Source of the DNA: a virus
IMG/VR virus record: IMGVR_UViG_3300028666_000022
Coordinates: 124,001 to 188,000 of that record
DNA length: 64,000 bases
Reading direction: 5' to 3' (one strand)
Shown piece by piece: positions 3,225 to 60,900 of this stretch. The position numbers and the translations under genes were made by a program. Within the stretch, counting starts at the first letter, position 1, and each line of letters starts with the position of its first letter. A model generated the notes under the pieces. That model saw only the letters and a program-made list of their open reading frames with translations. It was not told where the DNA came from and did not search any database.

Positions 3225-4016
3225 TTAAAAATTCATTATTGAATTATTTCTATCGATATATGTTATACCATATTGATTTATTCCGCATGTTGTTAATGGA
3301 ACATTAGTGTCTAACCAATCTTCATTTGAATTTAAATTAATTTGAAAATCAGACATACTTGGATTTTTATCATAAGTATATTGAAAATATGTTTCAATAA
3401 ATCCAGGTTTTAATATTAATTGTCCCCCAATACTTGGTGATGGTCCAACAACATTTTCAACAATATTTGTATGAATTTCATCACTTAACGAATTGAATTT
3501 AAATGTAGTAATATTACAACTACAGCACGAAGAACAACATCCACATGAACAACAAGAACACGAGCAACAGCATGTACAACTACAACATCCACAAACATTA
3601 ATACTATTAATTGAATAATTAACAACTTTTTGAGAAGTTAATGGTGCATTATCTAATGTTTTAAGCCATAAATATAATGTTGAAATATTTTGATTTGGAT
3701 AACCACAATAGTGATTATTAATATTTGTTCCATTTACATTAAAAATAAGATTTTCGTCTTGAGTATTACCAATAACAATTGAACTTGTTGGTGTTTGTGT
3801 TGTTGTAGTAGTTGTAACCAATGGATCAACTGTTAATTCTTGTTGAAATGAACAACCATTTGAGTCTGTAATAATTAACGTATAAAAACCATTGGGTACA
3901 TCATCAAATTCATATGCACCAATAGCATCATGAACATTAACTGGAATTAAACTAGGTGTTAATTCTGCAGTAAAAGGTGCTACTCCACTAACTATCGTAT
4001 ATTTTATTGTTGACAT
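3225..4016 (-). CDS. tail protein with SprB-like repeat and cysteine cluster
   Basis: 263 residues. Residues about 3-66 resemble a SprB repeat, the unit of the Flavobacterium gliding adhesin: a beta domain ending GFYTLIITDSNGCSFQQEL followed by VDP. A poly-threonine linker (about 69-78) leads to a second beta domain interrupted near residues 138-168 by a run of alternating Cys with Ser/Gly. Such Cys density is very unusual for a phage tail protein; metal binding or disulfide cross-linking is possible. It sits with other Cys-rich tail proteins downstream of the baseplate genes. Receptor or surface binding is inferred. Confidence 0.55.
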   Translation of the reverse strand: MSTIKYTIVSGVAPFTAELTPSLIPVNVHDAIGAYEFDDVPNGFYTLIITDSNGCSFQQELTVDPLVTTTTTTQTPTSSIVIGNTQDENLIFNVNGTNINNHYCGYPNQNISTLYLWLKTLDNAPLTSQKVVNYSINSINVCGCCSCTCCCSCSCCSCGCCSSCCSCNITTFKFNSLSDEIHTNIVENVVGPSPSIGGQLILKPGFIETYFQYTYDKNPSMSDFQINLNSNEDWLDTNVPLTTCGINQYGITYIDRNNSIMNF

Positions 4017-4041
4017 TTCATTTATATTTTATATAATATTT

Positions 4042-5271
4042 TTAACAACAACTGCCACATCCACAACAGCAACTATTGGAGGAAATAGTATTAAATTCAC
4101 TAACAGTAGTATTTGTTCCCAAAATAAAATTACCACCAATTTTACAAGCAATCGTAAACATACTAACAGTAGCACAATTTGTATAATTATAACCACAATT
4201 TGATAAATTACTATTTGCTATGGCATAAAATCTTAATGAATTAATATTTGTAGTATTAATATCAATATAATCATAATTGTGACATAAACAATTGCTAGTT
4301 GTTTGTGCTTGAAGAACCGTATTTATTGTGTTACAACAATTAGTATCACCAACAGTACAAACATATGAACAAGATGAGATTGATTGAGGTAAATTAACAA
4401 GACTACTTGATTGAGCACAGTCAACAAAACAAATTCTAAAACTTTGTCCAGAAGTTAAAGCAGGGGTTGTACTTATTGTTCCATATTTACAACCACATAC
4501 TAAAGGATTTGTAGTTAAATCAACGGGAACAAAATTTACGATAATTGGTGTTAATGTCGTTGTGGTAGTTGTTGTTGTAGGAACATTACTTTCATTTGTT
4601 TTTAATGTATTATTTAATATTGTTTCATTAAAACCAAACGGTATTGCACAAAATAATGTTAATACTGAACAACCACTTGTTGCAGTTGGTGTCGAACAAC
4701 ATGTACAGCAACTAGAAAATGAAGTAGATATGCTATAACGCAACAAATCTCCTTCACATAATGTAATCTGTGGTATTGTTTGAAAGTTATTATTTATATC
4801 ATATTTTACACTTATCCAATTATTGGTTCCATTTGCTTTACATGAAACACTAACATTACTATATAGTCCATTATTAGAATCACCCAAAGTACATGAATTA
4901 AAACATAAATTAACACATTCACCCATTGATAATGCTGGTGATATGTTTAAACAATCAGTAACACAGCAATTATTTGAACCAGCAGGTGAATTTGGTACAC
5001 CAGCTAAGTTAATTGTTTTTGTTGCTAATGTAGTTGTTCCTACTGTCACTGGTGTTGTAAATCCAGTACTAATTGAATTTCCAATATTATCTCTAACACT
5101 TAAACTATATGTAGTATTAGGAAATAATCCTCCAAATATATTACATGAACAACAAGTACTACCTGAATGCTCAATTATTTTTTGTTGCAAAACAGTATTA
5201 CAACCATTTAAACAAATTTGAGCAATGAATGGTTCAAAATTACCACCTATTTTAAATTTTAAATCACCCAT
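4042..5271 (-). CDS. cysteine-rich adhesin-like tail protein
   Basis: 409 residues of beta-rich, Thr/Ser/Asn/Cys-rich sequence. A poly-Thr linker near residues 230-240 separates two halves. Motifs such as CCSCN, CVTDC and a terminal CCCGCGSCC recur. The N-terminal part (KIGGNFEPF ... LFPNTTYSLSVRDNIGNS) looks like an Ig/SprB-type extracellular domain. It shares composition and repeated phrases with the 263- and 657-residue neighbours and ends 2 bases before the next start region. Probably a distal tail or baseplate decoration protein. Confidence 0.5.
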   Translation of the reverse strand: MGDLKFKIGGNFEPFIAQICLNGCNTVLQQKIIEHSGSTCCSCNIFGGLFPNTTYSLSVRDNIGNSISTGFTTPVTVGTTTLATKTINLAGVPNSPAGSNNCCVTDCLNISPALSMGECVNLCFNSCTLGDSNNGLYSNVSVSCKANGTNNWISVKYDINNNFQTIPQITLCEGDLLRYSISTSFSSCCTCCSTPTATSGCSVLTLFCAIPFGFNETILNNTLKTNESNVPTTTTTTTTLTPIIVNFVPVDLTTNPLVCGCKYGTISTTPALTSGQSFRICFVDCAQSSSLVNLPQSISSCSYVCTVGDTNCCNTINTVLQAQTTSNCLCHNYDYIDINTTNINSLRFYAIANSNLSNCGYNYTNCATVSMFTIACKIGGNFILGTNTTVSEFNTISSNSCCCGCGSCC

Positions 5272-5273
5272 AA

Positions 5274-7451
5274 TTATACTATATTAATATTTTTGCTTAC
5301 AGTAAACATTATAATATTATTCAATCTTTCTCTAATTGAAACAACATAATTACCAGTACCATTAACATACAATTTTTTCGGTGCTCCAACAGTGCTAACC
5401 GTTTCCCAATTTAATGCTGAAGATGTTGATGGATGTATATTAAATTCTATCGTACCAACAATAGGATTAAAATTATTTGTAATAGTAAGTAAATAATTAC
5501 TTATTGTCACATATTTACCACCACTATCAGAATTTTGATTTAATGTAAATAAAGAATATAGTGGGTTACCAACAGCAACATAATCTCTTGAAAGCATAAA
5601 ATCAAATAAACCTCCAGTATCTCTAGTAACGATAGTATATGGTAAAGTAAACGTTAAGTCATTAAATATCGCTTCACCCAAATTAAATGATTGCCATTGA
5701 ATTGTAAAATCTGGAGCACCATAAGATTTAATTCCTATTGATGGTGTACCATATGTTATTCCAATATCACTTTGAAGTATTTTAATATTCGTTGGTCTAA
5801 TTTGAGTAATATTAAAATCTGGAATTAATCCACTTGGGGTAATTTGAGCATCATATAAATATAATGGACCGGTTGGGTTTGATATTGTAACACCACTTGT
5901 AACAACACAATTTGGTGATCCTAAATCATATAATTTTACTATATAATTACCAGTATTTAAATTATTAACTAATGTATTTCCAGTAATTGGTTGATAATAT
6001 AACCTATTAGTTCCACTAAGAACTTCAAGTATTAATTGTCCACTATTATTTTGTATATTATATATATTTATTTTACCATCAGTACCATTAATAATACTTG
6101 GTGAACTACCGCTAACATTATAAGTAACTAAACACCTGTTGCATCCAATTATGATATTATCATTAATTCCAACATTATAATTAGGTAGCGTCCATGATCT
6201 ATTTGATTTGTATGACATTGCAAATAATATTTCTTGATCTTCAATTACAAATATTTTTAAATCGTTAAAAATTTTACCAACAATATTACCCTGTAAATCA
6301 CCTAAATTATAATATGTGGTATTTAATGATCTTGTTACTCCAGTTAATGTTTTAACATCACCAATAGCTTTTAATGTTAAACCTAATTTTTTATTTGGTG
6401 ATTTATGCCACATTATAGTGGGAAGATTTAATGTAGGGGTATTTTTATATAATTCTTCTGCATATGTATTAGATGGTGAAGAATTTGTATAATGAATAAT
6501 TCCTAGTTTTTTTAAAACAGGAGCTTGGTTTTGAATGTATGAAACAAATCCACCATAAACATTACTTTTATATTCACCAAAATTTTTATTTGTTGTTTGA
6601 ACACCAATAATATTATCAGTATATACTATTGACATATTCCAAAAAGGAAATGTTATTGTAGGACATTGACTATTTTGAAGAAATGCAATAACTTCTTCAT
6701 TAATATAATCAGTAGAACTATTATTAAAAATTGATGTTCCAGTATAATTTATATAATTATAATAAACCAAAGCACCTGCAACAACATTACTTGAACCACC
6801 AATTAATTTACTAAAATCAGGTAAATTTCTATCTACTTGAATAATCAAATTATTATTACTTAATGTACCCGATGCAATATCTTGAATTTTATAAATTAAA
6901 TATGGTGTTGGATAATTAACATTAACACTATATCCTGTTGTATTAATACTATATGGATTTGTCCATTTAATTAATAATAGATCACCTATTTGCGGTTCAT
7001 TAACATTACCTTGATATGTTGGTGCTTTAAATAATTTTAGTAAAGTACCTCCACTCAGAGTATTTAATCTAATCATTACATCTGGTTGTTTAACATGATC
7101 ACTATCAGTAATAAATGTAGTTGTACCGCTATTTATTGAAAAAAATCCTATTGGTTGTACCGTATTTTGAATAATTGTTGGTGTTGATGGAACATTATTT
7201 ATTAAATTATATGAATCACCTGAATTATTTTTTGTAATAAACGATAAGATATTTGGATTTTTGTCTGCAGGTCTTAATATTAAAGAATTAAATGGATTAA
7301 AATTTGTTTCATTATTAAAATTATAATCAATTTCACTATCACCAATTGCAAAATATTTAAAATTTAAATTACCTTTAGATATTAATTCTCTACCCTTTGA
7401 AGTTAATTTTATATTTAAAACTATTGGATCTTTTTTATCAATAAATGCCAT
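5274..7451 (-). CDS. large tail/baseplate protein with SprB-like domain
   Basis: 725 residues. The N-terminus (MAFIDKKDPIVLNIKLTSKG ... NFKYFAIGDSEIDY) resembles the attachment domain of tail-collar/fibre proteins ('LT..G...L....L.F..+A+GD'). Around residues 435-525 lies a SprB-like unit with GTDGKI, LNTGNYIVKLYD and CVVTSGVTISNP. The rest is beta-rich with repeated Ig-like segments. A GTATTTATA element lies 17 bases upstream, so it probably starts a late transcript covering this and the next three Cys-rich genes. Virion location is inferred from context. Confidence 0.55.
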   Translation of the reverse strand: MAFIDKKDPIVLNIKLTSKGRELISKGNLNFKYFAIGDSEIDYNFNNETNFNPFNSLILRPADKNPNILSFITKNNSGDSYNLINNVPSTPTIIQNTVQPIGFFSINSGTTTFITDSDHVKQPDVMIRLNTLSGGTLLKLFKAPTYQGNVNEPQIGDLLLIKWTNPYSINTTGYSVNVNYPTPYLIYKIQDIASGTLSNNNLIIQVDRNLPDFSKLIGGSSNVVAGALVYYNYINYTGTSIFNNSSTDYINEEVIAFLQNSQCPTITFPFWNMSIVYTDNIIGVQTTNKNFGEYKSNVYGGFVSYIQNQAPVLKKLGIIHYTNSSPSNTYAEELYKNTPTLNLPTIMWHKSPNKKLGLTLKAIGDVKTLTGVTRSLNTTYYNLGDLQGNIVGKIFNDLKIFVIEDQEILFAMSYKSNRSWTLPNYNVGINDNIIIGCNRCLVTYNVSGSSPSIINGTDGKINIYNIQNNSGQLILEVLSGTNRLYYQPITGNTLVNNLNTGNYIVKLYDLGSPNCVVTSGVTISNPTGPLYLYDAQITPSGLIPDFNITQIRPTNIKILQSDIGITYGTPSIGIKSYGAPDFTIQWQSFNLGEAIFNDLTFTLPYTIVTRDTGGLFDFMLSRDYVAVGNPLYSLFTLNQNSDSGGKYVTISNYLLTITNNFNPIVGTIEFNIHPSTSSALNWETVSTVGAPKKLYVNGTGNYVVSIRERLNNIIMFTVSKNINIV

Positions 7452-7467
7452 TTAATTAATATTTTAT

Positions 7468-7476
7468 TATAAATAC
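7468..7476 (-). promoter_or_regulatory. putative late promoter element GTATTTATA
   Basis: Minus strand TTTTTTTGTATTTATAATAAA, 17 bases before the ATG at 7451, preceded by a T-rich run and a weak hairpin. Confidence 0.55.
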
Positions 7477-7490
7477 AAAAAAATATTTTT

Positions 7491-7508
7491 TAATTATTCA
7501 TATAATTA
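7491..7508 (-). terminator. weak candidate terminator
   Basis: TAATTAT and ATAATTA form a 7-bp AT stem overlapping the stop codon of the 657-residue gene, followed on the minus strand by AAAAAATATTTTTTT and the late-type element. Weak stem. Confidence 0.3.
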
Positions 7509-9479
7509 ACAACAAGAACAACTACAAGAACAAGAGCAACTACAAGAACAAGAGCAACTACAAGAACAAGAGCAACTACAAGAACAAGAGCAACTACAAG
7601 AACAAGAGCAAGAATTACTTAAAGCATTATGCGTTGAATCGCAATGTTTATTTACATCTATACTTGGTATTATTCCAATGCTTGAATTAATTCCAATAAT
7701 ATCAATAATTGAACAAGCACATGATGTTCCATTATTTGCATTTAATTTATAACATAGAGTATCACCATTATTTATGTTAAACTGGATAATACCACTGTTT
7801 GGATTAATACTACTATCAACAAAACATTTGGTTAAATAAGTAGATCCTAATGATGGTTTACAACTAATTGTAACACAAGCAGTAGTATTATTACCACAAC
7901 AAGTACTACCACAACTAATTAAACAATATGAAAGACAAGTATTAATATATTCACCAATTGGTACTGGAATATTAGTGTTAATGTAACCATTAGTTAATGA
8001 AATTGATGCATTTTGATTACAAAAACTAAGTGTTATTGGCACTGCTGGATTTATATTAGAAGCACAATCACTTTTTAAGGAAACATTAAGTATTGGATTT
8101 ACACCAATTGACGATGTTAAATTAGTAATACATAATTTTTCACTAGAAGAATTACCGGGATTTGGAGAAACTAATGTTGACGTATAACATAAAGAATCAC
8201 CATTTCTTGCAATTATTGTTGCTGATTGTGGTTGTGACATTAAATTATTAACAGTAGAAACAGGAACAAATGCATTACAACCACAAACACTATTTGAATT
8301 ACATGTAAATATAATATTTGATGTGCCGCCAATGGTTGTAGTAACTGCAGATAAATTAATTGTAACACATTCTCCAACTGGAATTACGGGTGAAAAATTA
8401 AACACACCACCAATTGTACATGTTTTATTTGTAGACAAATATGTGTTTACTGTTCTATTTACTGATACATTTACATCTAATTGTGGCTTATTTGATATAA
8501 CATTTACCGAACATTTCGTTAAATTAATACTTGGGTTAGTTGTATTTAATCCATCAACTGAAGTAATACTAAAATTAGCGTTTGAATTTGACGCATAACT
8601 AACTGCATTAGTATTTACTGCATAACAAACAATATCACCATAACATAATGTAAGTGAACCGTTTCTCGGTGAAATTCCATTAGTATTTGTAATATTAACA
8701 AAATTAATAAAACAATTACAACCATTTGGTTTACAACTAAAACCAATTGAAGAACTACCATTACCAGTAACCAATGCATTAGCAACATAATTTATCTGAA
8801 TTTTTTGATCAGGAGCTAATACAGTTGGATTTATTTCAAAACAACCCGTTTCATAATTAGAAGTAGTATTAGTGACTGAAGTAATTTTCTTTATACTAAC
8901 CACTTTTGGTGTTAGAGTAACTGTAGTACTTGGTAATAAAATAAACATTGAAACTATTTTTGAATATTCGCACACAACATAATCTTTTTCAACTATATAA
9001 TCTCTAATCATTACATTATATATTTCATTTGGATCTAAATTTAAGAAAGTTGCACTATTTTGCCAAACAAAATTATTTGAATCACCCGTTGAGGGATAAA
9101 CCTTATATTGCATTATACCATTTGCACTACCAGCATTAGTTACTCTAACCCCACTAAGAAATTTATATATTAAAAAATTTGTATTTAATGTACAAAAATA
9201 ATTACTGCAATTAGGTTCACTATATGTTGAACCACTAATTAATATTTTCTTATGTATATCACTTTCAATATTAATGTGATTTAGAAAATCATTAATCCTA
9301 TTATTATATTCATTTATTGATATTGATTGTAATTGTTCTGTTGTTAATGTCGAATAAGTATTGGAATTAAATGTAAATGAATTTAATAAATTACATTGAA
9401 CAGTATTACCAGTATATGTTCCAAGTCCACAACTAATAACACAACTCATATTTAAATTATATTTTCTGGCAGTTCCCAT
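7506..9479 (-). CDS. cysteine-rich tail protein with Ser-Cys repeat tail
   Basis: 657 residues, beta-rich with several repeated modules that share phrases such as GDTLCY/GDSLCY, CKPNGCNCF and ECV-type strands. The last 36 residues or so are an almost uninterrupted alternation of Ser and Cys, encoded by a perfect 18-base tandem repeat. There is no signal peptide, so secretion is unlikely and a virion role is favoured. Start MGTARKYNLNMSC is 2 bases after the glycosyltransferase stop. The function of the Cys tail (metal binding, disulfide cross-links, surface contact) is unknown. Confidence 0.5.
   Translation of the reverse strand: MGTARKYNLNMSCVISCGLGTYTGNTVQCNLLNSFTFNSNTYSTLTTEQLQSISINEYNNRINDFLNHINIESDIHKKILISGSTYSEPNCSNYFCTLNTNFLIYKFLSGVRVTNAGSANGIMQYKVYPSTGDSNNFVWQNSATFLNLDPNEIYNVMIRDYIVEKDYVVCEYSKIVSMFILLPSTTVTLTPKVVSIKKITSVTNTTSNYETGCFEINPTVLAPDQKIQINYVANALVTGNGSSSIGFSCKPNGCNCFINFVNITNTNGISPRNGSLTLCYGDIVCYAVNTNAVSYASNSNANFSITSVDGLNTTNPSINLTKCSVNVISNKPQLDVNVSVNRTVNTYLSTNKTCTIGGVFNFSPVIPVGECVTINLSAVTTTIGGTSNIIFTCNSNSVCGCNAFVPVSTVNNLMSQPQSATIIARNGDSLCYTSTLVSPNPGNSSSEKLCITNLTSSIGVNPILNVSLKSDCASNINPAVPITLSFCNQNASISLTNGYINTNIPVPIGEYINTCLSYCLISCGSTCCGNNTTACVTISCKPSLGSTYLTKCFVDSSINPNSGIIQFNINNGDTLCYKLNANNGTSCACSIIDIIGINSSIGIIPSIDVNKHCDSTHNALSNSCSCSCSCSCSCSCSCSCSCSCSCSCSCSCSCSCC
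7519..7608 (-). repeat. 18-bp perfect tandem repeat, five copies
   Basis: The plus-strand unit CAACTACAAGAACAAGAG occurs five times without change and encodes three Ser-Cys pairs per unit on the minus strand. Perfect identity including third codon positions suggests recent slippage expansion; copy number is likely to vary between isolates. Confidence 0.9.
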
Positions 9480-9481
9480 TT

Positions 9482-10399
9482 TTAAAAAATTATATTTTGA
9501 AAATTATTTTCAGTTTCTTTAATTTCTTTCACATAATTATATGAACAATATTCTTTACTACATTTCAATTCTTTATTAAATGGTGATATTTGATGCTGTG
9601 TTTTTAGAAAATAATACCCATTATTTATAACTGCACCTGCATTATGATAAATATTTGTATTTTCCCATTTTTTTATCACGTCTGTTGCCCAACAAAAATC
9701 AAGTTTTTTCATAATTTTTGTTTTATGACCAAAATACCAAGCATTCCATAAAACAGCCCACATATCTGCAGTCCATGCTTGAATTGGATGTTCTGGATTA
9801 TATTTGTGTGATGAATTAACCATAAATACATATAAGTTTTCTGAATCTTTTTCAACTTTTCTCCAAAAATCAGCATTTATGTTTTTCATTAAATATTGTG
9901 CACCACCTGCATTTTCATCATTTTCCTCAACAAGATTTGAATTAATTCCAACAATTTCACACATTTTATGAAATAATTCTTCACTTTTACTTTTAATATA
10001 TTGACTACTAATATATGATCTAGTATCACTTAAATACCATGTATTACTTTTTTCTAAATCTGCAAATTTCATTTTTTTAGTAAAAATTACATCTGGATCA
10101 ATATAAAAAAATATTTCATTTTCTGCATTTGGATATTTTTCAAAAAATTTAGCCAAAATGTGTGGTCTTAATGTTGATGAATATTGTGGATTAATTCTCT
10201 CATCATTAAAAATATAAAAACTACATTTACTATTAGTTTTTGTCATTATATTTGTCAACACACTACTTTTTTGTATTGAATTTTTACCTATAACATAAAT
10301 AACATCTTCATCTAGTCCAAGTTTTTTAAAATTGTTTATTTGGACAAGCATTTGCCATAAAAAATAATTACTGTCAGGTAATGCAATTAAAAATTTCAT
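9482..10399 (-). CDS. GT-A-fold glycosyltransferase (Ser/Hyp galactosyltransferase-like)
   Basis: 305 residues with IFFYIDPDVIF (a D-x-D metal/nucleotide-sugar motif near residue 97), NAGGAQYLMK, and QAWTADMWAVLWNAW with a later FCWAT. This order resembles peptidyl-serine/hydroxyproline galactosyltransferases and other DxD enzymes that read an acceptor protein. It is embedded between baseplate and tail-adhesin genes with 2-3 base spacings, so it may glycosylate a virion protein, for example the Thr/Ser-rich linkers encoded nearby. Acceptor and sugar are unknown. Confidence 0.6.
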   Translation of the reverse strand: MKFLIALPDSNYFLWQMLVQINNFKKLGLDEDVIYVIGKNSIQKSSVLTNIMTKTNSKCSFYIFNDERINPQYSSTLRPHILAKFFEKYPNAENEIFFYIDPDVIFTKKMKFADLEKSNTWYLSDTRSYISSQYIKSKSEELFHKMCEIVGINSNLVEENDENAGGAQYLMKNINADFWRKVEKDSENLYVFMVNSSHKYNPEHPIQAWTADMWAVLWNAWYFGHKTKIMKKLDFCWATDVIKKWENTNIYHNAGAVINNGYYFLKTQHQISPFNKELKCSKEYCSYNYVKEIKETENNFQNIIF

Positions 10400-10402
10400 A
10401 TG

Positions 10403-13400
10403 TTATGGTGTTGATATTGTTGTGGTTATTATTGGTGGAACAATTATTGATATTTCACCATTTGGTGTAACATCTGAAACTGTTGGTGTTAATTGTGTTA
10501 ATGAACTAACTATTCCACTTGGTGAACCAATTAATTTTAATGCTTTGTTTTCTATAGTAATTTGAATACTATCTCCATTTGTCATTGAAATTATTGTATT
10601 ATTTACAATATTTAAAATATTTGCAGTAGTTTCTGAATTATTCATACTATAAATAACTACACTATTCTTTTTTATTGTAATAAACGAATCTGATTCATTT
10701 CCAGTACCACCAGTAATATATAATTTACTAATAAAATTCAAGCTAATATCTACATTATATCCCGGTAATATTGCTGGTGATACAACTAAATCATATGTAC
10801 TTTGACCATAATATCCTGTTTGTATATTTGTTGATATTGCTTGTTGTGCTGTTTCTGATTCAATAAATGTTAATATTGCACTAAATGGAAATGCTGTAGT
10901 TGTTGTAGTGTTTGTTGGATATGAAATAGTAATGCCACTAACAATAAAATTTTTACATAAATTTTTAACACAAACAAAATCATTTGTCCATTCAACTTCT
11001 TGTGATAATGGTCTTTTCAAGAAAACACTACCATCATTTCCCATATAATTTAATTGAGAATCAAAACTATATTTTACTCCACTACCTAATGTATTTGTGT
11101 TAATAAATCCCATATTAACACCTCTTTTATATGTGAATTTTTGTTTAGTAAAAACAGTATTTCTAACTAATAAACCACTTTTTCTTAATATTATCGTAGA
11201 AGAAAGTAATTCATCAACAAACTTCTGAAAAAATGCATTATATTTATTTAAAAATGGATATAAATTTTCAAAAGTATAACCATTAGAATGTAATGGATTA
11301 TTAACAGGTAGTTTACTTCTTTTTAAATAATCACTATAAACTTTTAATAATGTTGGATACCAACCTCCTTTAGAATCTGTAACAACTTTTCTGTTTCGAG
11401 CATTAATTAATTTTCTTTGTATTAATTCAATAAATTCAAGAAAAGATAATTTACTTATATCACCAACACCAAAATCATTACCTATTATTGGATTAAAGAA
11501 ATCATTACCACCTATAAGATAATAAACACTAATAACACTATTGAATCTCAATCCTCGTGGCAAATATATTTCATATGGATTATTTAAATTAAGACTATAA
11601 TCTGTTTGAGGTTCTAATGCAATACCATCAATTAATATTTTTACTTCTGAAGCATTTTTTACTTTATAATTTAACTTATAAACAAATTTATTTGCTGAAT
11701 TATTAAAATAAATTTTACTACTATTAAAACTATCAATTCTTAAAACCTCACTTCTTGCAGCAATACTTGTATTACCAGTGACAGTAATATATGCTACTTG
11801 TACGTAAGGATCTTCAGATAAATATGCAATAACATCAGAATTTTGAATTATTAATTCACTACTATTATTTGGATTAACAATATAGTCAGCAATAAATTGA
11901 TTTGTTCCTTTAGTTAAGGCAACACCATTTATTGTTAATTGAACATCTCCATTTGGTAAAGCGGGTAATGGAACAATCGTACCATTAAGATTTGGTTTTA
12001 CTCTAGTTGCAACATATTTTACTGTAACACCTGAAATTGCTGGTGTTAACCCATTATTATATAAATAAGTAGCTTCAACAACATCTCTATTACCATTAGC
12101 ATTTACTGCAGTTCCATTTATTTTAAACGTACTACCAGTAATACCATAATCACTCTCAAAATTAGTTATTCCTGTTGCTCCTGTTCTTGGGGTATTTAAT
12201 AAAATTCCATTAAATCTAACTTCAATATCACCGTCTGGAGTAAATGGAAGCGTAAATTTATTTGCACTAGTATTATATCCTAACGATAGGTTAACATAAG
12301 TATATGGAAGAGTATAACCACTTGAATTTGCTGGAAAATCAATGTCTTTAATATATGAGAACACATCATATTCAATTCCTCTGGCTAAATCTAATGATAC
12401 CTCAGTTTCTTTTGTATTTAAAACTAATCTACTATCTCCTTGATAATATTGCTGTGTTGAATAATAACTTCTAGTTGTTGCTCCTGTTTGAATCCAAGAT
12501 TTTTTATTATCAACAGTTTGCATTAAATTAAATCCAGCCAAACGAAAAGCATCCATATATGCTTGTCCACTATCAGTATCACCAGAAACTTGGAAAAAAT
12601 AATTACTTGTTTCTAATGGTGCAACAGGATAACCATCAGTATCATACGGTAATGAATTCGAAGGAAAATCTGCTTGTGTTAATGTTACTTCTCTAGGATC
12701 TATTTTTCCTTCAACAGTATAAACATATTCATTAATACTAATAAATGGTTCTGGAATACCAATCAACATAAATATTGATTTAATTGCTTCTCTTGTTCCT
12801 TTTGATTTCCAAAAATAATTGGTATTCATTAATATTCTTCGCCATAATTCAATGTTCACCTCTGCAGGAAGTAAATCAGTATGTAAATTTCTTTCAAGAT
12901 TATCAATTGTAAAAAAACTATCAACTAATTCAGCTTCATTCACTAATGAAAAATAATCCCAACCAAACGTCCTAGCTAAATTACTTACTAATTGATCTGG
13001 AATATTATTAACTTTATCATAAGTAATAGTATTAATATATACCAACGAATCAATAAATTCTCGCATTAAATCAAACTCTCTACCATAAATTCTTAAAAGT
13101 TTGGTCATTTTACCATCTTCTGTAAGATCATACGTCTTTAATGATAAGGGAGTTAAAAATCTTGCAATTAAATCAGTTTTTATACTATCATACTTTGAAC
13201 CAATGGTTAATGCAGTATCTAAAAATTTTTGATATGGTGAAGCACTAATATCTATATTATATCCATCAGTCGTTGTCCATAATACTGTTGCATTTGCGTA
13301 AACTATATTTCCATCGTCTAACAGAGTAGGTTCACTCATTTTAAATTGAAAACCTTGAATATCTACTCTTTCTGAAACAATATACTGTTCATATTTTTCT

Positions 13401-14149
13401 AAATTTGCCCTAAATTCTTCGAAAATAAAATTATTGGGTTTCATGTGATAATCAAAATATCCAGTAGTTGTATTACCAGTATTAAATGGGAATGGATTAC
13501 CTGAAGTTTTTATGGTAATATGATTTACTCCTGAAGTATCACCTGTAAACCCAACTACATTATATGAATTATTTGCATCGTATTTTGACCATATTACATA
13601 TTTTTCAAGAGATAAATTAATGTTTTTAATCTCTTGATTATTAGGAACACTTACATTACCTTGATTAAATATTAATCCAAATTTATTTTTAATAAATTCA
13701 GAAGGAACATCAAATGTTGATATATCTGTAAGTGGATCATAAACAAAATTATAAAAACTAATATTACCACCTCTATTTACCTTTGAACTAATATATAAAC
13801 TTCCGGGATATGCTAATATTATATTCTGTATCGAAACTCTTAAAAGTTCATAAGCCGAACCAAATCTAACAAAAGTATTTAAATCAGACTTATCGAGATT
13901 TAAAACAACATTGGTTGAAAAATCATGAAGCATTGAAGACTGACTAGAATTAACTCCTAGAGTGTCTAATGTTACTGGCCTAACGAAGGAAGAAAGCGAA
14001 TTTGAGTAGTCGACATTTTTTTTTCCATCAAAGTTTGAGGTGATACTAAAACTTCCTAAAGTAAAGATAGTCTCAGAAGTAGTATTGTTGAAATTTTCAC
14101 CATTTAAGTTCTGGTCAAGATTATTATTAATTACCTTTACTTTTGCCAC
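10403..14149 (-). CDS. large baseplate-associated structural protein (gp7-position)
   Basis: 1248 residues starting with GTG. Around residues 433-465 the phrase ELWRRILMNTNYFWKSKGTR, followed by EAIKSIFMLIGIPEPFISI, matches a conserved segment of very large baseplate/tail proteins in T4-like phages ('W+.ll.N...l.K.KGT..ai..l+.+.GIP'). A poly-Thr stretch near residue 1105 precedes a separate C-terminal beta domain. It lies downstream of gp25 and gp6, the place of gp7 in T4, but direct homology to gp7 is not shown. A GTATTTATA element lies 16 bases upstream, right after a strong terminator. Confidence 0.6.
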   Translation of the reverse strand: MAKVKVINNNLDQNLNGENFNNTTSETIFTLGSFSITSNFDGKKNVDYSNSLSSFVRPVTLDTLGVNSSQSSMLHDFSTNVVLNLDKSDLNTFVRFGSAYELLRVSIQNIILAYPGSLYISSKVNRGGNISFYNFVYDPLTDISTFDVPSEFIKNKFGLIFNQGNVSVPNNQEIKNINLSLEKYVIWSKYDANNSYNVVGFTGDTSGVNHITIKTSGNPFPFNTGNTTTGYFDYHMKPNNFIFEEFRANLEKYEQYIVSERVDIQGFQFKMSEPTLLDDGNIVYANATVLWTTTDGYNIDISASPYQKFLDTALTIGSKYDSIKTDLIARFLTPLSLKTYDLTEDGKMTKLLRIYGREFDLMREFIDSLVYINTITYDKVNNIPDQLVSNLARTFGWDYFSLVNEAELVDSFFTIDNLERNLHTDLLPAEVNIELWRRILMNTNYFWKSKGTREAIKSIFMLIGIPEPFISINEYVYTVEGKIDPREVTLTQADFPSNSLPYDTDGYPVAPLETSNYFFQVSGDTDSGQAYMDAFRLAGFNLMQTVDNKKSWIQTGATTRSYYSTQQYYQGDSRLVLNTKETEVSLDLARGIEYDVFSYIKDIDFPANSSGYTLPYTYVNLSLGYNTSANKFTLPFTPDGDIEVRFNGILLNTPRTGATGITNFESDYGITGSTFKINGTAVNANGNRDVVEATYLYNNGLTPAISGVTVKYVATRVKPNLNGTIVPLPALPNGDVQLTINGVALTKGTNQFIADYIVNPNNSSELIIQNSDVIAYLSEDPYVQVAYITVTGNTSIAARSEVLRIDSFNSSKIYFNNSANKFVYKLNYKVKNASEVKILIDGIALEPQTDYSLNLNNPYEIYLPRGLRFNSVISVYYLIGGNDFFNPIIGNDFGVGDISKLSFLEFIELIQRKLINARNRKVVTDSKGGWYPTLLKVYSDYLKRSKLPVNNPLHSNGYTFENLYPFLNKYNAFFQKFVDELLSSTIILRKSGLLVRNTVFTKQKFTYKRGVNMGFINTNTLGSGVKYSFDSQLNYMGNDGSVFLKRPLSQEVEWTNDFVCVKNLCKNFIVSGITISYPTNTTTTTAFPFSAILTFIESETAQQAISTNIQTGYYGQSTYDLVVSPAILPGYNVDISLNFISKLYITGGTGNESDSFITIKKNSVVIYSMNNSETTANILNIVNNTIISMTNGDSIQITIENKALKLIGSPSGIVSSLTQLTPTVSDVTPNGEISIIVPPIITTTISTP

Positions 14150-16150: not shown

Positions 16151-16840
16151 TTACGTATTTTTTACAATATTAAAGAATTTACCTGCAGCATAGGTTTCAA
16201 TATCAACCAAACTTTTCATATATTCGAGTTTATAATTTTTATCAAATGCCGATAATTCTTGTCTAGTTATAAATACATCATTAATGATTTTTGGATTACT
16301 AATGATATTATCTTTATTAGGATCTTTAAATATTGGAGCATTAATAAAATCAGGACTATTAGTGCCTTGTGGAGTATAACTAAAACAAGTACAATTATTT
16401 ACACCACAAGAATTAAATTTATCAATATATTTGATACCACCAATATAATAAACAACACATTGTGAAACACTTGAATTCTGATAATCAACACCATCATTAA
16501 CTATTGATGAACCACAAGAACAATCACAACTAGTTCCACTATTACTAATACGAGCAATATATTGATTATTAAAATCAGATGTTATAGTATATTTACGTAA
16601 TTCACTTAATCTACTTGTAGAAGTTCCAGTCACTGTTGGCAATAAAGTCCAAACAGTATTATTAGTAGTTATACCTGTGTAAGCATCAAAAAAACCAATG
16701 TCTTGTGATTCAGAAGTTAATAGAATATTAATATGGTAAATAGCTTTCAAATCAGGTATTATTGTTCTACAATTACCTGTACATGTAGAAGTAATACCTG
16801 TTGTAACTATTTGTTTTATCTTTTTTTTAATTAATTCCAT
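16151..16840 (-). CDS. baseplate-cluster structural protein with cysteine motifs
   Basis: 229 residues. The N-terminal two thirds is beta-rich and contains CDCSCGSS and CGVNNCTCF clusters. The last 60 residues (NAPIFKDPNKDNIISNPKIIN ... FITRQELSAFDKNYKLEYMKS) are helical and look like a conserved baseplate attachment tail. Placed directly after gp6-type, 30 bases away. Possibly a wedge accessory protein; not assigned to a T4 gene. Confidence 0.5.
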   Translation of the reverse strand: MELIKKKIKQIVTTGITSTCTGNCRTIIPDLKAIYHINILLTSESQDIGFFDAYTGITTNNTVWTLLPTVTGTSTSRLSELRKYTITSDFNNQYIARISNSGTSCDCSCGSSIVNDGVDYQNSSVSQCVVYYIGGIKYIDKFNSCGVNNCTCFSYTPQGTNSPDFINAPIFKDPNKDNIISNPKIINDVFITRQELSAFDKNYKLEYMKSLVDIETYAAGKFFNIVKNT

Positions 16841-16870: not shown

Positions 16871-18718
16871 TTAACTAACACTTTTACGCAACAAAATCTT
16901 AATATCTTTCGAAGGTTCCTTGATTTCAAACATACTATCCTCTGTTGCATAAATTGTATTATTAATTATGTTAATCTCACCAGTACTTGAATTTAGTATT
17001 TGTTGAGAAATAACATTATTTGAATACGTACCACCAACCTTATTAAAAACTTTGATATTAATAACATTAATTACTCCATTTACAGCATTTATTTCACTTT
17101 GAAGTTGTGCTAAGAATATATTGGTGTCCATTTCATATTTATTTATATCAAAATAATTAGTAACAACAGTAATAATACTATTTGCTATCTGATTATCTGA
17201 TATGTTTTGAACATAAACATCAATTTCAAAACCTAAATTAATTATTTTACCGTCTTTAATTTCAATAAAATCATTCATCATTCTATATCCGCTCAGATAT
17301 TCAGTAATATTATTTTTTAATAATGTATTACTAGTATTTGATAATTTACCATCTGCCCCAATACCTAATATACTTATAACTACTTTATTGTTTAACTTAA
17401 ATGCATTTGCTCTAAATGGTGAACCAAACTTACCCGGCATTTTATAAACCTGAAGCAAATAATCAGTTAATGTTACTGCCCTTCCTTGACTACTAAAATT
17501 ATAACTAATTAGGTTTCTAATCTGTTCTATACTCAAACCATCATTTCCGCCAATTGCTGGGATCGGATTAACTGCACGGAGACTTTTTTGGACAGCCGTA
17601 TTCAAATCCTGTCTCGATCCATTGACCCGTAGATTAGCATTTCCTATTTGAGTAAGAATATTAGCTCCAATATTAGAATTACTTCCACCACCAGTTCTAT
17701 ATCTTACAAATAATGTATAATTAGGTTTTAGTTTTTCTCCTAAAGCAGTGTTATTTAAAAAATTATCGAGAAATGCTCTATTTGTTACTCCTTCTTTAAT
17801 GAATCCATTTTTAAATGCATTAACATCAGAATCACCAGAACCAAAAGTTAAAACACAAAATCCATTATCAGTATATTCTTTAATAAATTTTTTAGTTATG
17901 TCCATCCATATAGCAGCTTTAGTACCACCTGAAGTAACTGAACTATTTAGGTTTTCAACAAATATCCTCTGTTGTGCTAAATAATCTACTTCATAATAAA
18001 TATTATTTGCTGTATAAAAATCTGAAACTGAAGGGTTACTTGAAAAATTTGTACCTTCTAATAGTATTACATTTTCTATTTCAATAACATCTGGATCTGG
18101 TAATGTTATTGAAAAAAATGGAACAACATCATTAGTGCTTATTACTCTTTTATATATATTTGTGCTACCATTTATAACAATTTCTCTTTTAGTAATAGTA
18201 TAACTTACAACAATACCATTTGAATCTAAATTTGGTATAATAGAACGATTTGGATCACCTAAATTACTAACTGGAGATGAAAAGTCTATTGTTTCTGTAG
18301 TTTCAAAAATTTTACCACCTCCGATTGCTTGAAAACCCGGTGGAATTTGAGGAAAATAACTAGGATCTGGACGATCTCCAAGAACCGGAACGCTTACGGA
18401 TATGTCTAATAATGTTACAGACGGCCTACGTGCTGGTATATTAAACCCCAAATTTTTAGCTATATTTCTTAAACTACTGATTTGCTGACTGTTAGCAAGT
18501 TGAGTTTCATTAAAAACTCGATCTGTATTTATTGATAAATTATTGGTAACACCAGCATTTAAATCAATTAATAAGGTTCCAATTGAAGAATCGCTAAAAT
18601 CCCCCAAAACTTCTGGATATGAGGTCTTTATATAATTAATTAAATCAGTTTTTATGTCCGAAAACGTTAACGAATTATAACGAACTATATTTGTAATATT
18701 TGTATTATTATTTGCCAT
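16871..18718 (-). CDS. baseplate wedge protein, T4 gp6-like (baseplate J family)
   Basis: 615 residues, close to T4 gp6 (660). The N-terminus (FSDSSIGTLLIDLNAGVTNNLS ... RNIAKNLGFNIPARRPS) is the typical gp6/baseplate J opening. The middle has VRYRTGGGSNSNIGANIL, and the C-terminal third has SSQGRAVTLTDYLLQVYKMP and a gp6-like domain ending near FEIDVYVQ. In T4, gp6 dimers tie the six wedges together around the hub. Downstream of the gp25-type gene as in T4-like phages, with an endonuclease inserted between. Confidence 0.9.
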   Translation of the reverse strand: MANNNTNITNIVRYNSLTFSDIKTDLINYIKTSYPEVLGDFSDSSIGTLLIDLNAGVTNNLSINTDRVFNETQLANSQQISSLRNIAKNLGFNIPARRPSVTLLDISVSVPVLGDRPDPSYFPQIPPGFQAIGGGKIFETTETIDFSSPVSNLGDPNRSIIPNLDSNGIVVSYTITKREIVINGSTNIYKRVISTNDVVPFFSITLPDPDVIEIENVILLEGTNFSSNPSVSDFYTANNIYYEVDYLAQQRIFVENLNSSVTSGGTKAAIWMDITKKFIKEYTDNGFCVLTFGSGDSDVNAFKNGFIKEGVTNRAFLDNFLNNTALGEKLKPNYTLFVRYRTGGGSNSNIGANILTQIGNANLRVNGSRQDLNTAVQKSLRAVNPIPAIGGNDGLSIEQIRNLISYNFSSQGRAVTLTDYLLQVYKMPGKFGSPFRANAFKLNNKVVISILGIGADGKLSNTSNTLLKNNITEYLSGYRMMNDFIEIKDGKIINLGFEIDVYVQNISDNQIANSIITVVTNYFDINKYEMDTNIFLAQLQSEINAVNGVINVINIKVFNKVGGTYSNNVISQQILNSSTGEINIINNTIYATEDSMFEIKEPSKDIKILLRKSVS

Positions 18719-20458: not shown

Positions 20459-20857
20459 TTAAAAACTTAAATCCAGACTTCCATTTTCAAAGAAATTATC
20501 TTGACTATATTGAAATAGTATATTTACATTTATTTGTGTTTCTGGAATAGGATTACCATTATCATCAATATTCCAATTAAATGTTACTTTAGTAATTTTT
20601 AATGCTGGTATATAAAGAGACACAGTATTTTTTATTTCTTCTTCAATATCACTAGCAGAATTTTGATCGTTCATTTCAAACACATATTTCAAAAGACCCG
20701 TTCCAAATTGCGGCATCATATATCTTTCTCCACGCTGCGTTAATAATAATAGTAATAAATCAGAGGTTAGTGCATCTTTACTAACTTGATTGGTTGAAAA
20801 ATATGTGTTAGTATCAGGACTATCAGTTAAAGGAAACTTTATATTATATGAAATCAT
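20459..20857 (-). CDS. baseplate wedge protein, T4 gp25-like
   Basis: 132 residues, the same length as T4 gp25. The core LLLLLTQRGERYMMPQFGTGL, followed by LLKYVFE, DIEEEIKNTVSLYIPALKI and an internal-duplicate strand, is diagnostic of the gpW/gp25 family. It initiates sheath assembly at the baseplate together with gp6 and gp53. A GTATTTATA element lies 14 bases before the ATG, directly after a terminator, so this gene opens the late baseplate transcript. Confidence 0.92.
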   Translation of the reverse strand: MISYNIKFPLTDSPDTNTYFSTNQVSKDALTSDLLLLLLTQRGERYMMPQFGTGLLKYVFEMNDQNSASDIEEEIKNTVSLYIPALKITKVTFNWNIDDNGNPIPETQINVNILFQYSQDNFFENGSLDLSF

Positions 20858-54132: not shown

Positions 54133-55023
54133 TTATAATTCAGTAGAACAAAAAACACCAGTATTTGTAATAGTCATTCTCCATCTACAACCATTTGGTG
54201 ATTTTAATATTACACCACTACCCAAATTATTAATTTCAACATCACTACACCAAGAAATTAATTTTGGAACTATAATAGTATCCGTATAAGTATTTCCTGT
54301 TACAACTATGTTATTTCCTCCAATAATCCCCGAATTTGTATTACCAGAATAAAGAACATTATTATTTCCACCAATAACCAGAGCATTGTTTGATGATACA
54401 ACATTACCATAACCAAGAGCAAATGAAAAATCAGATTCTGCTTCACCATTATTTGCAGCCATTGAATATTGGCCTAATGCAATACCACCTGTCATTGCAA
54501 CTGAACAATTACCTCCTGCATATCCAGCACTCATTGCAACAGAATAATCACCATTAGTAACACCACCAGCCATTGCTACTGAATTATTACCACAAGAATA
54601 AGAATTATAACCAATTGCAACTGAATTATTACCGCAAGCTTGACCACATGATGTTGCAACTGAATAACAACCAAACGTACAACCTCCAGCCATTCCAACT
54701 GAATTACATGAACAAGCAAAACCAGTTGCCATTCCAACTGAATTATCACATATTGCTTGACCAGAAGCCATCGCTACTGAATAATTACCATTAACATTAC
54801 CTCCAGCCATTGCAACTGAATTACAACCAGCAGCAGTACTACCAATATTAAATTTTAAATTATCATTATTTGAGTAATATACTAAACCCGTATTACCTGT
54901 TAATGTACCATTATTATTAAATATAATTTCAGTATCAGTAGATTTAATATTTGTTTTACCTGTTATTACAACAGATTCAATACCGTCATTATCTTTTAAA
55001 GATATATTTTGAATTATTATCAT
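54133..55023 (-). CDS. Hep/Hag (YadA-head-like) repeat tail fibre protein
   Basis: 296 residues. After a 60-residue start, about ten repeats of 14 residues share NSVAMAGG.A.G..., the pattern of left-handed beta-roll heads of trimeric autotransporter adhesins. They end with NNALVIGGNNNVLYSGNTNS and a C-terminal domain containing GVILKSPNGCRWRMTITNTG, a motif found at phage fibre tips. No signal peptide or membrane anchor, so a virion fibre is more likely than a secreted adhesin. The 695-residue neighbour has the same design. Trimerisation and host binding are inferred. Confidence 0.7.
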   Translation of the reverse strand: MIIIQNISLKDNDGIESVVITGKTNIKSTDTEIIFNNNGTLTGNTGLVYYSNNDNLKFNIGSTAAGCNSVAMAGGNVNGNYSVAMASGQAICDNSVGMATGFACSCNSVGMAGGCTFGCYSVATSCGQACGNNSVAIGYNSYSCGNNSVAMAGGVTNGDYSVAMSAGYAGGNCSVAMTGGIALGQYSMAANNGEAESDFSFALGYGNVVSSNNALVIGGNNNVLYSGNTNSGIIGGNNIVVTGNTYTDTIIVPKLISWCSDVEINNLGSGVILKSPNGCRWRMTITNTGVFCSTEL

Positions 55024-55062: not shown

Positions 55063-57150
55063 TTATATTAATGTCGTACTTAACACTCCAATATCACTTA
55101 CGGTTATCTTATACCTACATCCACTTGTTGATCTTAATATTACACCACATAAATTTGTTGTCACCTCAATATTTTTATTCCAAACAATTAAATTAGGAAC
55201 TGCAACAGTATTACAATATGCATTAATTGACATAGTATAACCACTTCCACCAATAATTACTGAATTTATATTACCTGAACAAAGTAAATTATCGTGCCCC
55301 CCAATAATAACACCATTAATTGATTTAGTAACATTTCCAATTCCAACACTAAACGAACAATCACCACATGTAGTACTACCATTTATTGCAACAGAGCCAA
55401 CACCACATGCAATACCACATGTCATTGCCACTGAATTAGTACCAATTGCAGTACTATTTAAAGTAATACCCATTGAATTTTGACCACAAGCATTACCACC
55501 AGCCATTGCAACAGAATTTTGACCAAACGTATTACCACCAGCCATTGCAACAGAATTAGTACCACATGCTAACCCTCCAGCCATTGCTACTGAAGACATT
55601 GCGTGTGTTTCACCATTAACCATTGCAACAGATTGCATATACATTGCTTGACCACCAACCATTGCAACAGAATAATCACCACAAGCAACACCACCAGCCA
55701 TTGCTATTGAGTTACACGCATAAGTTAAACTATTAACACCAATTGCAATTGAACCATCACCAGAAACAGTAATACCACCTCCCATTGCAATTGAATTTTG
55801 ACTACATGCAATTGAATTACTACCTAAAGCAAACGTATTACTACCCATAGTAATACCACCAATAATAGCAACTGAAGTATTACCCGATGTAATACTACCA
55901 TAACCCATAGCAAATGAATTAATATCACAAGTAGTCCCACCAATCATTGCTACAGAATTAAAAGAATTTGCTATACTAACACCCATAGCAACTGAATATT
56001 GACCGTAAGCACAACTTAAACCCATAGCTACTGAATTATCACCAAAAGCTTGACCACCATTCATTGCTACAGAACTAATACCACACGCTATCGAAAAACT
56101 AGTATTATTAATATCAAAACCAACAGCAAATGAATTAATTCCATATGCTTGGCCACTACCCATTGCTATTGAACCTTGACCCTGTGCACAACTACCAGAA
56201 TTTACTTGTAAAGCATCGATACTTTTACAATATTTTAAATTAGTATTACCAGTCAATGTTCCACTATTATTAAATATAATCTCAGTATTACTCGAACAAA
56301 TGCTAGTACCTCCTGAACTACCTGAAGTTAATTCTATTTTTTTTGTTAATGGATTACGACATAATACATTACCACTACCTGCTTCAACATTCCAAATTGC
56401 TAAATTAGGAACAATAACAGTATTTAAATATGTGTTTCCGGTAGCATTAATATTATTACCACCAATAATACCTGAAGTAGTATTACCAGATGAAATAACA
56501 TTATTACAACCACCAATAATTACACTATTTTTTGAACGAACAATATTATTAAATCCAATTGCAATTGAATTACAATTACATGTCATACCATTAATCATAG
56601 CAACAGAACAAATACCACAAGCAGTACCACCAATCATTGCTAATGAATTACAACAACAAGTAGTTGCGTTACCCATCGCAATTGAACATACACCATAAGT
56701 GAGACTATCTATTGCAGCAAACGAATAAATGCCATACGATCCAGCACTACCAATCATTGCAACTGAATTACATCCATTTGATGAAGCACCTGCAATACCC
56801 ACCGAATGTTGGGCAAAAGCGCAACTTCCTAAACCTATTTGTAACCCATCAATACTTGAACAATATAATAAATTTGTATTACCCGTAATTACATTATTTT
56901 TATTAAAAATTATTTCATTATTTGTTGAACAAATACTACTACCCCCTGAACTATTTTGTAAAGTAATGTTACCATTAGAATCTGATGTAGCTATTTTACC
57001 TGAACCATGATTAGGTAAGATTGATAATGTTCCACCACTCATTATTTTTAATTGTCCAATAATTAAAGTGCATCCAGATAAATTTAAAACATCAGTTGAA
57101 CACTGTCCAAATTTATTATTATTTAAATATAATTTAGTATTTACACTCAT
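55063..57150 (-). CDS. long Hep/Hag repeat tail fibre protein, two beta-roll modules
   Basis: 695 residues. Two modules (about 70-270 and 285-690) each begin with CSTNNEIIFNKN...TGNTN or a close relative, continue with many 14-residue SVAMAGG repeats, and end with VIIGG.N and a GNTY.NTV.VPNL.WN phrase. The final 50 residues (CGVILRSTSGCRYKITVSDI) match the end of the 296-residue protein. It appears to have grown by internal duplication. A late element lies 70 bases upstream, after a hairpin terminator. A trimeric fibre or adhesin is inferred. Confidence 0.7.
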   Translation of the reverse strand: MSVNTKLYLNNNKFGQCSTDVLNLSGCTLIIGQLKIMSGGTLSILPNHGSGKIATSDSNGNITLQNSSGGSSICSTNNEIIFNKNNVITGNTNLLYCSSIDGLQIGLGSCAFAQHSVGIAGASSNGCNSVAMIGSAGSYGIYSFAAIDSLTYGVCSIAMGNATTCCCNSLAMIGGTACGICSVAMINGMTCNCNSIAIGFNNIVRSKNSVIIGGCNNVISSGNTTSGIIGGNNINATGNTYLNTVIVPNLAIWNVEAGSGNVLCRNPLTKKIELTSGSSGGTSICSSNTEIIFNNSGTLTGNTNLKYCKSIDALQVNSGSCAQGQGSIAMGSGQAYGINSFAVGFDINNTSFSIACGISSVAMNGGQAFGDNSVAMGLSCAYGQYSVAMGVSIANSFNSVAMIGGTTCDINSFAMGYGSITSGNTSVAIIGGITMGSNTFALGSNSIACSQNSIAMGGGITVSGDGSIAIGVNSLTYACNSIAMAGGVACGDYSVAMVGGQAMYMQSVAMVNGETHAMSSVAMAGGLACGTNSVAMAGGNTFGQNSVAMAGGNACGQNSMGITLNSTAIGTNSVAMTCGIACGVGSVAINGSTTCGDCSFSVGIGNVTKSINGVIIGGHDNLLCSGNINSVIIGGSGYTMSINAYCNTVAVPNLIVWNKNIEVTTNLCGVILRSTSGCRYKITVSDIGVLSTTLI

Positions 57151-59898: not shown

Positions 59899-60900
59899 TT
59901 AACTTAATGCCATTGCTGAAATCGATGCAGTTTGTTTATTTGAAATATAAACTTTATAACTACAACCACACCAACATGCAGTAGTAGCACTAATTGTATC
60001 TGGTGCAGGAAATAAATTACAAGCAGGACTTACACCACCACCAATAGTACCATTATTTAGTGCATTAACACACCAACAAACTTTTGTTGTAGTTGTTGCT
60101 GGAACTGCAAACCATAGATAATCATTACTTCCACTATTAAAATTAATACTAATAGAACTAGAACTACTAGCCAATACTTTAGTTCCACCAATAACCATAG
60201 CACATGTAGCAGTAGGTCTATTTGCACCAGCAGCACCCGGACAAGTACAAACACCATAATAATATGGTAATAAACCAGTTACAGTATAAGTACTCGAACC
60301 AAATTGAGTATTACAACTATTTTTAGCACTACCACACCAAATTTGATTATCACCACAAAAACTAAATCCTCTAGTAGTTATTGTTGCAGATTCTGGTGAT
60401 GTTACTGGACAATTTGTAGCTAATATAGAACTAGTTGTAACATCAACAATACATAAAGTATTTGCAGCTACATTACTTGTATTAGTAAATCCAAATGTAA
60501 ATGATTTTGAACCACTAATAATTGTACCAACTTCTATTGGTGTACTAACATTAGTACTAAAGCTACTAAATGCAGGTAATAAATACGGTACTAATATTTC
60601 TTTAAGTAATTCATTAGTACTTTTACCAGTTAAAACAGTACCAGCGGTAATTCCACCAACAGTTGCTGTAGCGGGTGAACTTAAATTATATATTGTTTGA
60701 CCAGTTACAGTAACAATTTTACTATCAACATATTGTTTATCAATTATTTGAGTATTTCCCGTGAATGTTGGATGTACTGCATATTTTAAAATTCCTGTTG
60801 ACGCAATTATAGTATTTCCAGACAAATTTACTGTTTGACCAGTACTTTGATATACTTTATCATTATTAATATTTATCTTAGTGTTAAATGTGATTGCCAT
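59899..60900 (-). CDS. tail-fibre-like protein with cysteine-rich C-terminus
   Basis: 333 residues. A fibre-like N-terminus (DKVYQSTGQTVNLSGNTI) is followed by a conserved segment ATVGGITAGTVLTGKSTNEL and a beta-rich C-terminal domain with YYGVCTCPG, YLWFAVPATTTTKVCWCVNA and CWCGCSYKVYIS. The same segments occur in the protein at the right edge of the window, so the two are paralogues. Attachment to the distal tail is inferred. Confidence 0.55.
   Translation of the reverse strand: MAITFNTKININNDKVYQSTGQTVNLSGNTIIASTGILKYAVHPTFTGNTQIIDKQYVDSKIVTVTGQTIYNLSSPATATVGGITAGTVLTGKSTNELLKEILVPYLLPAFSSFSTNVSTPIEVGTIISGSKSFTFGFTNTSNVAANTLCIVDVTTSSILATNCPVTSPESATITTRGFSFCGDNQIWCGSAKNSCNTQFGSSTYTVTGLLPYYYGVCTCPGAAGANRPTATCAMVIGGTKVLASSSSSISINFNSGSNDYLWFAVPATTTTKVCWCVNALNNGTIGGGVSPACNLFPAPDTISATTACWCGCSYKVYISNKQTASISAMALS

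Follow-up and report, generated by a model that had tools for sequence, protein, structure and literature searches.

Phage proteins are normally poor in cysteine, with contents of 0.9% in T4 and 0.7% in A511 (PMC10491603), but this general rule has known exceptions. In phage Milano, the tail is covalently stapled by disulfides, some of which must be reduced for contraction (PMC10811340), and disulfide networks are tail-wide in Milano and related phages (PMC10491603, PMC10811340, PMC12796354). Metal can also be held on fibres through histidine, since T4 fibres bind iron at HxH motifs, and the same is proposed for R22Y (PMC11705849). The stretch analysed here, called ‘the window’, comprises the 64,000 nucleotides at positions 124001–188000 within the 339,898-base viral record IMGVR_UViG_3300028666_000022 of IMG/VR; all coordinates below are those of the window unless a record is named. 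It encodes a set of putative tail and fibre proteins rich in cysteine, two of which carry dense strings of cysteine and serine, with a shorter one on a third. Cysteine-rich phage virion proteins are already known, and it is the dense Cys/Ser strings that are added here.

The closest described phages are the Agrobacterium phages Milano, 7-7-1 and OLIVR4, which are likewise tailed and have Cys-rich structural proteins (2.1–2.4% in Milano). Disulfides between tail proteins of Milano were proven by cryo-electron microscopy. Milano has its cysteines in the capsid, neck, sheath and baseplate and at the bases of the fibres, at positions shared by its relatives, whereas here the core is nearly Cys-free and the adhesin and fibre proteins contain 3–9% Cys, mostly at non-conserved positions, with the Ser-Cys strings in addition. 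HxH fibres (T4 gp37, Alteromonas phage R22Y) offer a likeness in that side chains able in principle to bind metal recur along the fibre, but the residue is His there and Cys here, and the folds are different. Metallothioneins likewise have short stretches made up largely of CxC, CC and CCxC; unlike these, the segments found here are a loop or tail grafted on large beta-domain proteins and are built only from C, S, G and T. The three string-bearing proteins gave no Pfam or NCBIfam match, hence none to a metallothionein family. Finally, the YadA-head adhesin repeat PF05658 is matched in two proteins of the window (54133..55023 and 55063..57150, both on the minus strand) with 30.8 and 42.5 bits (cut-off 25; E 8e-11 and 4e-7), and Cys occupies variable surface offsets of this repeat.

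Within one operon, three proteins have segments composed of C, S and G, and in two of these proteins the segment forms the very C-terminal end. In the 263-residue protein (3225..4016, minus strand), a 26-residue insert, CGCCSCTCCCSCSCCSCGCCSSCCSC, contains 16 Cys (3516..3593, minus strand). The 657-residue tail protein (7506..9479, minus strand) ends in the tail N(Ser-Cys)17-Cys (7509..7616, minus strand), exactly 36 residues long, in agreement with the length of about 36 given by an earlier reading made without database searches (the sequence-only reading). The 409-residue protein (4042..5271, minus strand) terminates in NSCCCGCGSCC (4045..4077, minus strand). Compared with shuffled versions of the same protein, the 263-residue protein reaches 16 Cys in 27 residues where the maximum across 5000 shuffles is 10, and the 657-residue protein reaches 14 where the shuffle maximum is 12. 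The local clusters described by the sequence-only reading were thus found in these two proteins and not in the 409-residue protein, which is evenly Cys-rich, with no local cluster beyond shuffles (6 versus a mean of 6.3).

Relatives were found via the conserved 1248-residue protein of the tail region (10403..14149, minus strand; 0.16% Cys), which gave 25 loci, and a profile search gave 192, of which 80 were kept; a direct search with the 657-residue protein returned no match in IMG/VR or among named phages. Across 846 proteins of related loci, 27 residues contain at most 6 Cys, versus 16 and 14 here. The insert of the 263-residue protein is a clean insertion, with nothing at its site in all five relatives compared, and the Ser-Cys tail of the 657-residue protein is missing from every relative compared. 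Of the phages compared, this one alone has the Cys/Ser strings. When DNA was scanned for Ser-Cys runs, the search, covering T-ending Ser codons and keeping one open reading frame (ORF) per place, retrieved 104 stretches, none encoding such a run in the chosen long ORF. Further CxCxCxC DNA matches in the record (at 92.7, 94.3 and 320 kb) do not lie within Cys-rich proteins.

The two longer strings differ in their DNA. The Ser-Cys tail is encoded by an 18-bp tandem array (98% matches), a repetitiveness attained by none of 2000 random recodings, and its length may drift or grow by slippage; it mixes TCT and AGT serines, which no single silent change can interconvert. The DNA of the 263 insert is not repetitive, its autocorrelation being reached by 1964 of 2000 random recodings of the same peptide, and its codons are mixed, with TGT and TGC for Cys and AGT, TCT, TCA and TCG for Ser. 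Due to this non-repetitive DNA and the four mixed Ser codons, the insert is considered to be retained at the protein level and not to be a recent DNA repeat. In a structural model of moderate quality (mean pLDDT 65.5, loop below 50), it lies in a loop between strands 130–138 and 172–177 in a protein of two beta-sandwich domains, whose model resembles FN3-like and collagen-adhesin-like domains with Z at most 7.6, a common arrangement. The 657-residue protein consists of an N-terminal region, a chain of Ig-like beta domains (with three copies of a Cys-bearing repeat) and the Ser-Cys tail, which directly follows the last Ig-like domain with pLDDT below 50; Foldseek hits of its model are unspecific similarities to multi-domain proteins, all with TM below 0.22. 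The strings are probably flexible, exposed thiol patches, sticky and sulfur-rich, flexibility and exposure being visible in the models just as low-confidence loop or terminal segments.

Beyond the strings, Cys content is raised in a larger set of proteins. All ORFs named in the sequence-only reading exist and are Cys-elevated (3.4–9.3%), namely the 263-, 409- and 657-residue proteins (7.2, 9.3 and 7.9%) and three that lie outside the interval 3500–9479 given there: a 229-residue protein (16151..16840, minus strand; 3.9%), a 333-residue fibre-like protein (59899..60900, minus strand; 4.2%) and an edge fibre-like protein that runs past the window end (62422..64000, minus strand; 3.4%). The two YadA-head fibres, absent from that list, contain 4.4% (54133..55023) and 5.0% (55063..57150). 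Taken together, the fibre-like set has 4.7% Cys, whereas the core virion proteins that share its operon have 0.38% (Fisher p 5e-35) and other ORFs 1.0% (p 2e-54), p-values that are descriptive because the set was hand-picked. Examples of low content are a 298-residue core tail protein (0.67%) and, as an internal control amid the Cys-rich proteins, a 725-residue protein (5274..7451, minus strand; 0.55%). Large ORFs with repeated CxxC units of homing-endonuclease-like character (FDFYLPEQNILIEFDGKQH-type motif; 18724–20424, 40669–42546 and 50255–51268 on the minus strand, and 17182–18468 of L005) were treated separately, as they inflate Cys counts.

Base composition accounts for part of this contrast. 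Random codons drawn from the position-specific composition of the fibre genes predict 3.5% Cys, against 5.1% seen and 4.2% without the strings, a prediction that is partly circular since Cys codons themselves raise T and G counts. On average the fibre genes thus lie little above a random sequence, and the clearer signal is their contrast with the core. Core proteins show 0.38% where 1.9–2.8% is expected. Because composition alone predicts about 3.5%, much of the contrast reflects the absence, in fibre proteins, of the usual avoidance of Cys. However, the 657- and 409-residue proteins remain above the compositional level even without their strings (5.5 and 8.0%). An unusual genetic code or recoding is ruled out by ordinary stops and by alike Cys codon usage in rich and poor genes, and GC content is rejected as a driver, Cys content being uncorrelated with it in the C-terminal extensions of 1248-like proteins and in downstream adhesins.

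In related phages, general richness is common and the dense strings occur in none, so that the comparison called for by the sequence-only reading has a divided outcome. Judged from sequence comparison, Cys-richness of adhesin and fibre proteins (about 3–9%) is clade-wide, with some exceptions, and is seen in proteins whose folds are unrelated. Proteins akin to the 657-residue protein have 3.4–5.5% Cys in the compared loci (wider set, n = 13: median 4.7%, range 1.3–7.9), 409-like proteins 1.2–7.4%, and 263-like proteins are nearly Cys-free (0.4–0.9%). A fibre family designated FFARPNL, elsewhere in the relatives’ records, has 3.3–4.5% in five of five records, and YadA-type fibres reach 5.4–5.6% in two. 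Many relatives carry a Cys-bearing C-terminal extension on the 1248-like protein; in loci without a 657-like gene, this extension or another small protein is often Cys-rich (0–7%). In L344 and L146 the extension is without any Cys, which indicates that Cys-richness is not obligatory for it. A 318-residue protein with 7.9% Cys occupies the site of the 657-residue gene in two loci (L135:10314–11270 and L136:13712–14668). A correlation between the Cys contents of extensions and downstream proteins (rho 0.65, n 11, p 0.03) was discarded because of a shared domain, the relatedness of the phages and the fact that the extension also tracks the control set (rho 0.52).

Conservation is confined to few positions. 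The Ig-like repeat, compared in 38 copies, has two near-invariant Cys columns, in the contexts CKP (79%) and GDxxCY (92%), which probably form a local structural pair. About a dozen further columns have Cys in 20–48% of copies, the other copies having chiefly S, N, Y, T, K or R there. Cys is conserved in about 14 of 119 Cys columns of the 657 family, and Cys retention is 0.26 versus a mean identity of 0.35 in the FFARPNL family and 0.26 versus 0.25 in the 409 family, whose Ig-like domain is related to that of the 657-residue protein. In the YadA-type fibres, that at 55063–57150 included, most Cys precede SVAM, at offsets –4, –2 and –1 from it, and none falls on the core offsets 0 to +4. The alignments thus suggest a picture in which many surface Cys drift in position around a small conserved core, and the clade-wide richness of the Ig-like proteins appears tied in part to a domain with two near-invariant Cys.

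Reading from gene content, the window appears to encode the tail tip and fibres of a jumbo phage. A tailed phage is indicated by gp25-type (20459–20857) and gp6-type (16871..18718, minus strand; 0.16% Cys) baseplate wedge proteins and a phage-type DNA polymerase, and the position of the Cys-rich genes beside the two wedge genes bears out their earlier designation as tail genes. The gp6-type protein is akin to those of Flavobacterium phage immuto, Microcystis phage Mel-JY01 and a 484-kb uncultured phage. On the minus strand, the run reads gp6, 229 residues, an intervening ORF of 333 residues, 298 residues, 1248 residues, a 305-residue protein (phrog_4417; 9482..10399, minus strand), 657, 725, 409, 263 and 247 residues. 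The phrog_4417 gene is directly upstream of the 657-residue gene, and in most loci a 657-like gene, where present, follows it; likeness of its product to glycosyltransferases was seen by eye only, Pfam, NCBIfam and PDB giving no support. The host is probably a member of the Bacteroidota: one bacterial contig with a relative of the 1248-residue protein belongs to a Bacteroidota metagenome-assembled genome, which fits this host group, mis-binning being possible. Read by eye, another part of the record (208001–228000; L007) contains apparent sugar-nucleotide genes (dehydratase-, aminotransferase- and epimerase-like, with several transferase-like), suggestive of phage-directed glycan synthesis. 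The window also encodes a 683-residue protein of Ycf48/PSII_BNR-type repeats (32093–34144, minus strand; E 1e-54), unusual in such surroundings, and a 1423-residue protein (34686–38957, minus strand) with three kinase-like repeats by eye, IGSGSGRIVYDIDGTKVFKLAKN and two similar copies.

How could the strings act? By established chemistry, dense thiols in a flexible segment would be expected to bind soft metals in the reducing cytoplasm and to become oxidized outside. The leading proposal, tentative and with chances a little short of even, is that the strings bind soft metal in the cell and then staple tail-tip proteins after release. Adhesin-like proteins (strings of Ig-like domains, YadA-type fibres) would tolerate and hold many surface Cys, to which this phage alone would have added strings as a loop insert (263), a tail (657) and a shorter tail (409). 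In the host cytoplasm, 16–18 thiols per 26–36 residues would bind soft metal ions; upon release of the virion, disulfides or metal bridges would form between neighbouring tail proteins and staple the tail-tip complex, to the presumed benefit of the particle. Stapling is favoured because the string-bearing proteins are encoded in a single run of genes and the strings themselves sit in a loop or at a terminus. Further points in favour are the protein-level retention of the 263 insert, the mixed serine codons of the Ser-Cys tail, the two near-invariant Cys columns and the disulfide networks of Milano and its relatives, to which the strings would be a counterpart on fibres. Several points weigh against this proposal. 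Relatives do without strings, the Ser-Cys tail is of a kind that slippage could lengthen, and membership of the 263-, 409- and 657-residue proteins in the virion is deduced from gene position. The additional Cys columns of the Ig-like repeat show no significant co-occurrence in the 38 copies once the number of pairs is taken into account (best p 6e-3), which speaks against intradomain disulfides for them. In addition, no thioredoxin or glutaredoxin was detected in the record, so that oxidation, if it occurs, would have to come from the host or the environment; a search for the Erv-type family is uninformative, as the family matched no control genome. A related idea, in which Cys/Ser brushes on tail-tip adhesins serve as a ‘thiol glue’ that fixes the virion covalently or via metal bridges to cell surfaces, or joins such parts with one another, is quite improbable. 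It would be an adsorption or stabilisation chemistry as yet undescribed for phage fibres.

The strings may also lack any specific function. Fast-evolving, displayed domains of an AT-rich phage would then drift to the compositional Cys level, one tail (Ser-Cys) having grown by tandem duplication. This explanation, rather unlikely though serious, draws on the compositional prediction (3.5% versus 4.2% without strings), the active avoidance of Cys by core proteins, a Cys retention no higher than mean identity in the FFARPNL family and close to it in the 409 family, the 18-bp array and the span of 0–7% among relatives’ extensions. It fits less well with the excess in the 657- and 409-residue proteins, the protein-level retention of the 263 insert, the two near-invariant columns and the nearly Cys-free fibre-region proteins of related Flavobacterium and LR756508 phages. 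Another unlikely alternative is that mature virions retain Fe, Zn or Cu on the strings and on Cys rungs of the YadA fibres, either to aid folding or to engage metal-uptake receptors; these sites would then be the sulfur equivalent of the His-X-His sites that bind iron in T4-like fibres. The CxC, CC and CCxC spacing resembles that of metal-thiolate proteins, Cys at preferred surface offsets of YadA repeats in two phages is probably stacked along the fibre, and the HxH precedent comes with a Trojan-horse proposal (PMC11705849); two relatives (L143 and L131) stem from metagenomes listed by a rice-paddy iron-cycling study (PMC10734482), yet habitat is known for these two only, and the strings have no His, Asp, Glu or Lys, unlike many metallothioneins. 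It is very improbable that phage enzymes attach O- or S-linked glycans to the Ser-rich strings, with the phrog_4417 gene just upstream as candidate. That gene lies directly between 1248-like and 657-like genes in 12 loci (in a 13th with small ORFs inserted), but four loci have the 657-like gene without it there, no database test identifies its product as a glycosyltransferase, and it is equally linked in relatives without strings, with no connection to Cys modification. Targeting by a diversity-generating retroelement was rejected: no PF00078 reverse transcriptase was found in G000–G004, the family being matched in three control genomes.

The sequence-only reading, according to which the tails may be metal-loaded or cross-linked after lysis and thereby stiffen or decorate fibres, is as a whole partly supported. 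In its simple form it is opposed by the poor conservation of most Cys positions among relatives, where Cys are not gained or lost two at a time, by a richness that stems in part from base composition and missing avoidance, and by the restriction to this phage of the strings, which are most relevant to metal and cross-linking. The string peptides are short enough for direct testing. If they cross-link or bind metal, densely displayed thiols would represent a fibre chemistry, the nearest precedents being the disulfide network of the Milano group and the His-iron fibres. If true, redox state and metals would be predicted to govern how jumbo phages of this widespread, Bacteroidota-type clade adsorb and how stable they are.

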